From a virus, in IMG/VR virus record IMGVR_UViG_3300030331_004026, positions 1-35,366 of that record: a stretch of DNA of 35,366 bases. One strand, 5' to 3'. Position numbers and translations under genes: made by a program. Shown here one piece after another: positions 33,214 to 34,190 of this stretch. Under the pieces are notes generated by a model, which ran no database searches, had not been told where the DNA came from, and saw nothing but the letters and a program-made list of their open reading frames with translations. Numbering within the stretch: the first letter of the stretch is position 1; the number at the start of each line of letters is the position of its first letter.

Positions 33214-33240
33214 TAAAAAAAGAGTCCTTTTTAGGACTCT
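33214..33240 (-). terminator. Intrinsic terminator after the 44-residue gene
   Basis: Stem AGAGTCCT / AGGACTCT (8 bp, 4-base loop, 33221-33240) followed on the minus strand by seven T. The TAA stop of the 44-residue gene (33231-33233) lies inside the hairpin, so coding and termination overlap. Confidence 0.9.
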
Positions 33241-33365
33241 TTCTTCTTCTTAGAAGAGGGCTTCTTCTTTTTTTTACCGAAAATTTTCTCGTAGTTTTCT
33301 CGGTACTTTTCCATGTCTACCGGTCGATATTTGTCACCTTTACCGGCACCATGTTGTCCACTCAT
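33231..33365 (-). CDS. Small basic protein, 44 residues, GKGDxYRPxxxxKYxxNYExIFG motif
   Basis: ATG at 33365 overlaps the stop of the upstream membrane gene by 4 bases (ATGA). The product starts MSGQHGAGKGDKYRPVDMEK, continues YRENYEKIFGKKKKK and ends in a second Lys cluster. The pattern G-K-G-D-x-x-R-P...Y...W/Y-x-x-I-F-G recalls very small conserved phage proteins of unknown function. It is strongly positively charged at the C-terminus, so a nucleic-acid contact is possible. It is the last gene of the tRNA-Gly / membrane-protein cassette. Confidence 0.75.
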   Translation of the reverse strand: MSGQHGAGKGDKYRPVDMEKYRENYEKIFGKKKKKPSSKKKKES

Positions 33366-33535
33366 TCCTTGTCAATCCAAGGACAACTGGGGCCGAGAAG
33401 AAGCAGAGTCGGAACCCAGAGACCGATGAAGATACCAAGAATCTGATCGGTCTGGTAGACGTAAACAGAGTAGAAAATGGAAAGAATTGCCAGGACATAA
33501 AAGATCTTCGAGATCATACCAAAAAAGTTACTCAT
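33362..33535 (-). CDS. Small membrane protein, 57 residues, two membrane segments
   Basis: Starts MSNFFGMISK; membrane segments at about residues 9-27 (SKIFYVLAILSIFYSVYVY) and 32-50 (ILGIFIGLWVPTLLLLG); ends CPWIDKE. The ATG at 33535 has GGAG 11 bases upstream; a GTG one codon earlier is an alternative. A longer frame reaches into tRNA-Gly but would put the start inside the tRNA. No family recognised; size and topology would allow a holin-like or superinfection-exclusion role, but nothing shows this. Confidence 0.7.
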   Translation of the reverse strand: MSNFFGMISKIFYVLAILSIFYSVYVYQTDQILGIFIGLWVPTLLLLGPSCPWIDKE

Positions 33536-33565: not shown

Positions 33566-33636
33566 AGCGGGCGGAGAGATTCGAACTCCCATTTCAAGGT
33601 TGGACACCTTGAGTAATGCCGTTATACGACACCCGC
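33566..33636 (-). tRNA. tRNA-Gly (anticodon TCC)
   Basis: 71 bases. Acceptor GCGGGTG pairs with CGCCCGC (one U-G); short D-arm GTA...TAC; anticodon stem CAAGG/CCTTG around TGTCCAA; T-arm GGGAG-TTCGAAT-CTCTC (its stem has one U-G pair). CCA not encoded. A strong hairpin begins 4 bases upstream of its 5' end. Confidence 0.93.
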
Positions 33637-33640
33637 GAAA

Positions 33641-33693
33641 GGCGGGAGTGGGTTATTGCTCAAACACCTACATCGGTGACCCACACTCCTGCC
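33641..33693 (-). other. Hairpin preceding tRNA-Gly
   Basis: GGCGGGAG (33641-33648) pairs with CTCCTGCC (33686-33693) with one irregular position; then a 2-base bulge and TGGGT/ACCCA (33649-33653 with 33679-33683), and an apical CACC/GGTG hairpin. A late-type motif ends at 33699, so on the minus strand this would be the 5' end of the tRNA-Gly transcript, removable by RNase P. Confidence 0.6.
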
Positions 33694-33698
33694 AGAGT

Positions 33699-33706
33699 TA
33701 TTTATT
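33699..33706 (-). promoter_or_regulatory. Late promoter-like motif AATAAATA before tRNA-Gly
   Basis: Minus-strand AATAAATA; predicted start at about 33693, exactly the base of the hairpin 33641-33693. It would give a late transcript of tRNA-Gly and the two small genes. Confidence 0.45.
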
Positions 33707-34055
33707 CGTTCGCAAGGCTAGATTCCCCACCTAGCACCTCTGACTCAACCATAATGTAGAAGACACTTGGAGTCAGACCGTCACGCAACCATCTCGGTAT
33801 AGTTCTTCGAGATCGAGCGAACGAGTGGTTCAATGGGACTCAGGATTCATGTATACCTGAACCTTTCGAGTGACTGTACATGATGCGTAGTACTCTACTC
33901 AGACCATCCTGCCCACCCCGCTAAGGGTCATCCATACAAGCATTTCTGCATCATACAGATAGGTCGCTAAACCATTCAGGAGTTGCACTATCCCCAGTCA
34001 GGAGGATTATTATGCGAGTCCCGAAGAGAGGTAATTAGTCTCTCTTCATTTTTTA
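33704..34055. ncRNA. Candidate large structured non-coding RNA
   Basis: A gene-free ~350-base stretch with dense complementary segments. Domain 1 is closed by TCGTTCGC (33706-33713) with GCGAACGA (33817-33824). It encloses GCTAG/CTAGC (33717-33721, 33731-33735), TCTGACTC/GAGTCAGA (33739-33746, 33770-33777) and ATCTCG/CGAGAT (33791-33796, 33808-33813): a compact four-way junction. Domain 2 has GGGACTC (33835-33841) with GAGTCCC (34016-34022). Inside it are CTGT+ATGATGC (33874-33886) with GCATCAT+ACAG (33948-33958), and GATAG/CTATC (33958-33962, 33988-33992; the last helix shares G33958 with the previous one). GGTTCA/TGAACC (33827-33832, 33858-33863) would make a pseudoknot with the long-range helix. 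Strand is unresolved: a terminator lies at its right end on plus, a consensus promoter points into it on minus. Location beside tRNA-Gly recalls T4 RNA C/D and the GOLLD/ROOL RNAs of phages. Confidence 0.6.
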
Positions 34056-34057
34056 TT
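34023..34057 (+). terminator. Intrinsic terminator (plus orientation) at the edge of the structured RNA
   Basis: GAAGAGAG (34023-34030) pairs with CTCTCTTC (34040-34047), loop 9, followed by ATTTTTTATT. The only well-formed plus-strand terminator in this minus-strand region. If transcription is from the minus promoter at 34074-34101, the same stem would instead be a 5'-terminal hairpin. Confidence 0.6.
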
Positions 34058-34073
34058 CACTTGTCATACGAGT

Positions 34074-34101
34074 ATTATACTCGTTTCTTGACGTTTGTCA
34101 A
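34074..34101 (-). promoter_or_regulatory. Sigma-70-like promoter into the structured-RNA / tRNA-Gly region
   Basis: Minus strand TTGACA (34101-34096), 16-base spacer, TATAAT (34079-34074). CTTGAC and GTCAAG (34088-34093, 34098-34103) form a 6-bp inverted repeat across the -35 region, which could be an operator. Predicted start near 34067. Confidence 0.75.
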
Positions 34102-34102
34102 G

Positions 34103-34190
34103 CCCTAAGATCAATTATTTAGGGAAGAAAAACTGAGGAGGGCCCTGCGGCCCCCCGCAGTCAAAAGGGGAGCTGAATCAAGATTCAGCT
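34103..34190 (-). terminator. Three tandem hairpins after the HTH gene
   Basis: H1: AGCTGAATC/GATTCAGCT (34171-34190), overlapping the HTH stop codon. H2: GGAGGGCC with GGCCCCCC (34137-34144, 34149-34156; one G-U on minus), followed by ...CAGTTTTTC on minus. H3: CCCTAA/TTAGGG (34103-34108, 34119-34124). H2 is the terminator proper; together they insulate the next promoter. Confidence 0.7.

Follow-up and report, generated by a model that had tools for sequence, protein, structure and literature searches.

The viral contig analysed here (35,366 bases; the window) appears to carry a free-standing gene for a trans-acting noncoding RNA of a marine T4-like phage, in which a divergent relative of the manA RNA (RF01745) is joined to a second domain (domain II) and placed before tRNA-Gly. 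On the basis of sequence comparison, we give this reading a probability of about 0.7. The analysis establishes the homology and structure of the RNA, the architecture of its promoters and terminators and its tRNA/tmRNA neighbourhood. The window belongs to a T4-like myovirus, with baseplate genes gp5, gp6, gp8, gp25 and gp53 and with neck, tail tube and gp32 genes; the nearest cultured relatives of its gp6 are found in marine and other T4-like phages, at about 30% identity. All four tRNA genes of the window are located on the minus strand. The features of the RNA and its transcription unit are listed in the direction of transcription:

34137..34156, minus strand: intrinsic terminator of the upstream operon, GGGGGGCCGCAGGGCCCTCC then TCAGTTTTTC
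34074..34101, minus strand: sigma-70 promoter TTGACA-N16-TATAAT, 12/12 positions; the same promoter is found upstream of many relatives
34053..34067, minus strand: predicted transcript start (~34067, from promoter spacing) and conserved leader AUGACAAGUGAAUAA
33835..34051, minus strand: manA-2 RNA (RF01745 match, held-out model R1, covariation)
34047-34040/34030-34023, minus strand: P1 hairpin of manA-2
34022-34016/33841-33835, minus strand: P2 closing helix of manA-2
33705..33828, minus strand: domain II, an 8-bp closing stem around several helices, with a conserved UGGGGAA loop (model R2, covarying pairs)
33640..33693, minus strand: long hairpin at the position of the relatives' intrinsic terminator, T-tract largely lost (folding and comparison with L143, L146, L167 and L169)
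33566..33636, minus strand: tRNA-Gly (anticodon UCC), directly downstream
33362..33535, minus strand: small membrane-like ORF, 57 aa, MSNFFGMISK..., next in the unit
33231..33365, minus strand: Lys-rich ORF, 44 aa, MSGQHGAGKGDKYRPVD..., which recurs near manA-2 in several phages
33219..33242, minus strand: bidirectional hairpin with T-tract, AAAGAGTCCTAAAAAGGACTCTTTTTTTAT on the minus strand (read directly from the sequence)

A divergent clade of manA RNAs

In a relaxed Rfam search of 4227 families (E up to 10), the minus strand at 34046-33830 matched manA with 43.6 bits and an E-value of 7e-10, covering model positions 1-192 of 192. Apart from manA and tRNA, no family matched meaningfully, even with E-values as high as 10. 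The match includes the closing long-range helix and the internal hairpins, and the window also contains the 3´ hairpin GGUAUACA...AAUCC, in the form GGUAUACAUGAAUCCUGAGUCCC, with the closing strand after it. The score lies below the curated manA cut-off of 55.2 bits, and instead of the metabolic gene expected after a 5´ UTR element (Rfam type Cis-reg), the RNA is followed by domain II and tRNA-Gly. By the curated threshold and by the cis-regulatory criterion, the window RNA thus falls outside RF01745. Homology to manA is nevertheless most likely, and the RNA apparently represents a divergent, free-standing variant with an added domain.

Short-pattern scans of viral contigs identified this divergent clade, here termed manA-2, in 35 marine viral contigs besides the window; one contig that the scans had listed as classical manA (L081) in fact carries manA-2. 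Ten other manA-2 loci were checked against manA: seven match with 42.7–52.5 bits and E-values between 1e-7 and 1e-10, but all ten stay below the cut-off, so that the manA-2 clade at present escapes annotation by Rfam. When 26 manA-2 sequences, with the window held out, were used to build a covariance model (R1), this model found the window with 219.5 bits (E 2.6e-54). The manA-2 model did not find classical manA in the 20 classical loci searched, showing that the two clades are far apart. No manA-2 was found in cultured phages by blastn. Seven pattern matches in bacterial genomes all lacked flanking manA-2 sequence, consistent with chance, and searches with flanking proteins for further relatives found nothing.

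Structure, covariation and strand

The initial annotation had proposed that a large, structured noncoding RNA lies next to tRNA-Gly, in a region without a plausible gene. Our results support a real structured RNA, and the ORF check of 33637-34067 revealed no convincing ORF. The region folds better than dinucleotide-shuffled controls on both strands, with a z-score of -2.65 on the minus strand (1 of 100 shuffles as good) and -3.91 on the plus strand (0 of 100), and folding alone therefore leaves the strand unsettled. The RNA is located on the minus strand, since conserved U-G pairs are possible only there; one pair is U-G in 27 of 27 manA-2 sequences, and both invariant and variable U-G pairs fix this strand. 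The promoter and the covariance-model matches agree. A plus-strand RNA ending at a supposed intrinsic terminator (34023-34047) was rejected for this reason, the hairpin being P1 of the minus-strand RNA, followed by its A-rich leader.

Other elements described earlier could be assigned to the RNA. The long-range closure is P2, with GGGACUC (34022-34016) pairing with GAGUCCC (33841-33835), and the suspected four-way junction corresponds to a real multi-helix junction domain at 33705-33828, a separate conserved domain (domain II). The consensus promoter on the minus strand (34101-34074) is genuine. Three TCAGGA repeats are, on comparison with the relatives, a coincidence: they lie in three unrelated places (P9, P4 and the P3 loop) and are not kept. 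The idea that GGU...GAAUCC hairpins mimic the T-arm of tRNAs was dropped, since these are not conserved in manA-2.

Covariation is present in homologues, both in the helices of manA-2 and in the junction domain. In the named structure of manA-2, 94.6% of the cells pair, compared to 40–51% with slid partners, and two-sided changes were seen in 65 cells versus 21 in shuffles; RNAalifold reported two-sided changes in 15 of 50 pairs. In model R1, helix 1 is off register in many rows (58% paired), and P1 was therefore read directly: its sequence is almost wholly different between manA-2 loci, yet it pairs in every sequence. P2 (GGGACUC/GAGUCCC) is invariant in manA-2, whereas classical manA has GGGAG/CUCCC instead.

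A second domain before tRNA-Gly

Besides the window, five contigs (L154, L156, L158, L168 and L174) have domain II after manA-2, and the domain was not found without manA-2. In all six cases it precedes tRNA-Gly(UCC), from which it is separated by a few bases in those five and, in the window, by an additional hairpin. A covariance model of domain II with the window held out (R2) found the window domain with 71 bits (E 3e-16). Four pairs are changed on both sides, compared to none in slid controls, and one stem that encloses the constant loop UGGGGAA is GCUAG/CUAGC or GUCGG/CCGAC. Since the counted alignment comprises just four distinct sequences including the window, this covariation is supportive, not overwhelming. 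The earlier proposal of a new RNA class is partly right: this 3´ domain has no match in Rfam, and the 5´ part is a divergent manA-type RNA scoring below the manA cut-off.

Promoters, terminators and neighbours of manA-2

The terminator at 34137..34156 would isolate the transcription unit of the window RNA from the upstream operon. The -10 box lies inside a conserved dyad, CGAGTATAATACTCG (34069-34083), also present in relatives; in the L154 group, a promoter lying 539 bases upstream has another dyad, AAAGTATAATACTTT, around its -10 box. The leader AUGACAANUGAAUAA (34053-34067 in the window) recurs in relatives, including several loci without a promoter. It reads as a four-codon ORF, the variable base of which is the second position of codon 3, making coding unlikely. 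Since the T-tract of the 33640..33693 hairpin is largely lost, read-through into tRNA-Gly is expected. An ORF similar to the 57-aa membrane-like ORF also follows the RNA in L143 and L167, and the hairpin at 33219..33242 is the probable end of the unit.

Of the 28 distinct sequences upstream of manA-2, 16 contain a promoter with at least 11 of 12 matching positions, compared to 0.4% of shuffles that attain 10/12. The -10 box is located some 53 nt ahead of P2. About two fifths of the loci have no promoter nearby and would depend on upstream transcription. Intrinsic terminators (E <= -10) were present at 20 of 29 distinct loci, versus 8% in shuffles, and 19 of these 20 start 7–11 nt past the RNA; where a terminator is absent, the RNA is mostly followed by tRNAs, by hairpins with a weaker T-tract or by more distant terminators. 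An own promoter and a 3´ end signal around the RNA are thus present, as expected for a stand-alone RNA gene; in the window, the 3´ end is predicted to arise by tRNA processing.

Downstream of manA-2, different loci have tRNA-Gly, tRNA-Glu, tRNA-Gln, small ORFs or a long ORF. For many manA-2 loci, tRNAs are found no further than 1.5 kb away, and a tmRNA precedes several of the loci. A permuted phage tmRNA lies a few hundred bases upstream of manA-2 in L081 (1837-2219), L141 (175-557), L157 and L162, with the tag DNSYSLAA in L081 and L141; L164 carries a standard tmRNA at the corresponding place. The tmRNAs suggest alphaproteobacterial hosts for some manA-2 phages.

Classical manA in viral contigs and cultured phages

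Short-pattern scans of viral contigs found classical manA in at least 119 contigs, a number that includes L081, later placed in manA-2; the 20 loci checked score 169–196 bits. Among the matches listed, 83 of 85 distinct upstream regions contain a promoter with at least 10 of 12 positions (3.6% in shuffles). Its -10 box lies a median of 21 nt before P2, thus transcription should start at P1. The -35 box is located inside an upstream terminator hairpin (stem >=5) in 37 of 83 classical loci among the matches listed, compared to 16% in shuffles, and such a fused terminator-promoter would insulate the RNA gene. In L074, L043 and L007, for example, an intrinsic terminator, GAGGGTGCTTGACACCCTCTTTTTTT, has the -35 box TTGACA in its loop. 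A terminator close downstream (-8 kcal/mol) is present in 30 of 94 loci among the matches listed (5% in shuffles). A same-strand ORF often starts within 100 nt downstream, and cis-regulation may operate at some classical loci, fitting these ORFs. Classical manA supports the reading as a free-standing gene in part.

Cultured phages have one manA copy each, in varying surroundings: it precedes gp32, rubrerythrin, a carbamoyltransferase or a convergent gene, follows gp23, lies close to talC or is part of a tRNA array. The manA of Synechococcus phage S-CREM1 scores 100.6 bits (PMC9964418). It abuts tRNA-Leu and tRNA-Asn (OP535465), wedged between both genes, and a similar arrangement is found in L017 and L028. 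Unannotated manA-type RNAs are present in the Pelagibacter phages Mosig (MT647606.1 108164-108371, upstream of rubrerythrin, 64 bits) and HTVC008M (NC_020484.1 5037-5223, upstream of gp32, 25.9 bits, E 7e-6). Short "hypothetical proteins" annotated across manA RNAs in the records of P-HM1, P-HM2, S-SSM5, P-SSM4 and HTVC008M are probably spurious genes.

Proposed mode of action and alternative explanations

We propose that the host sigma-70 RNA polymerase would start at about 34067, probably early, and produce one transcript carrying manA-2, domain II, the hairpin and tRNA-Gly. Cleavage by RNase P at the 5´ end of tRNA-Gly would then yield a folded, stable RNA about 430 nt long. In the majority of relatives, the 3´ end would instead be generated by the intrinsic terminator right after manA-2. 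The RNA would act in trans, probably through a host or phage protein to which it binds, and would be part of the early RNA and translation toolkit of the phage, together with tRNAs and tmRNA.

The RNA might also be a cis-acting leader, a riboswitch or attenuator that controls whether transcription continues into the tRNA or small ORFs downstream. This is in line with the Rfam label Cis-reg and with the work of Weinberg et al. 2010, who found manA in potential 5´ UTRs and proposed cis-regulation on that ground (PMC2864571). A promoter directly upstream and a terminator directly after the RNA, as in many relatives, are arranged as in an attenuator, classical manA is commonly located before ORFs, and the window unit runs on into tRNA-Gly and two ORFs. 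However, the manA-2 terminators, which begin beyond the RNA, differ by locus and comprise several unrelated sequences, and their complementarity to their own RNA shows no excess over swapped terminators (mean rank 0.50); thus, no shared attenuator is visible. The genes downstream vary and include convergent genes and tRNAs, and manA can sit in tRNA arrays without spacer or promoter. Own promoters, terminators or tRNAs, the embedding in tRNA arrays and the varied neighbours argue against the label "cis-regulatory", at least for manA-2, and we consider a cis-acting leader unlikely.

A convergent or accidental match to manA, with manA-2 being an unrelated RNA class of similar layout, would be compatible with the window score below the cut-off and with the failure of the manA-2 model to find classical manA in 20 loci. 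It is improbable, since the match with E 7e-10 against 4227 families extends over the full length and is repeated in independent manA-2 sequences, the GGUAUACA...CC terminal hairpin and the closing helix are common to both, and the Mosig manA, which scores 64 bits, has a P1 loop (AUUAAUUAC) resembling that of manA-2. GOLLD and ROOL occur near phage tRNAs, and T4 RNA C and RNA D are stable RNAs of unknown function encoded in the tRNA cluster of T4-type phages; the location in a phage tRNA region had led the initial annotation to consider these types. Given that neither GOLLD nor ROOL nor any other Rfam class besides manA matched even at E 10, and that the window RNA totals ~430 nt, an RNA of the GOLLD, ROOL or T4 RNA C/D type is extremely improbable.

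Implications

The preferred reading of the window RNA as a free-standing gene can be extended to manA overall, for which we see roughly even chances: manA would be a widespread, insulated RNA gene of marine T4-like phages and not a 5´-UTR riboswitch, manA-2 would have spread into tRNA/tmRNA regions, and one lineage would have gained a second domain before tRNA-Gly, acting in trans during host takeover. Since 2010, manA has been listed as a probable riboswitch without ligand; if the phage forms are autonomous RNA genes, the search for a ligand is misdirected. A common marine phage RNA would then become directly testable, for example in the cultured phages HTVC008M and Mosig.

Comparison with known systems

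GOLLD and ROOL are large structured ornate RNAs (PMC12286853). The window RNA is likewise large and structured, but without a match to their Rfam models. With T4 RNA C and RNA D it shares the location in a tRNA region, a comparison made by description. The S-CREM1 manA resembles the window RNA in its position in a tRNA array, whereas it is a classical manA without domain II. The closest likeness is to manA itself, with the same helix order, long-range closing helix and terminal hairpin (GGUAUACA-GAAUCC), the occurrence in marine T4-like phages and a sigma-70 promoter upstream. In contrast, most helix and loop sequences of the window RNA are unlike those of manA, manA-2 has its own terminator or a tRNA downstream and no regulated gene, and the window RNA adds a 3´ domain.
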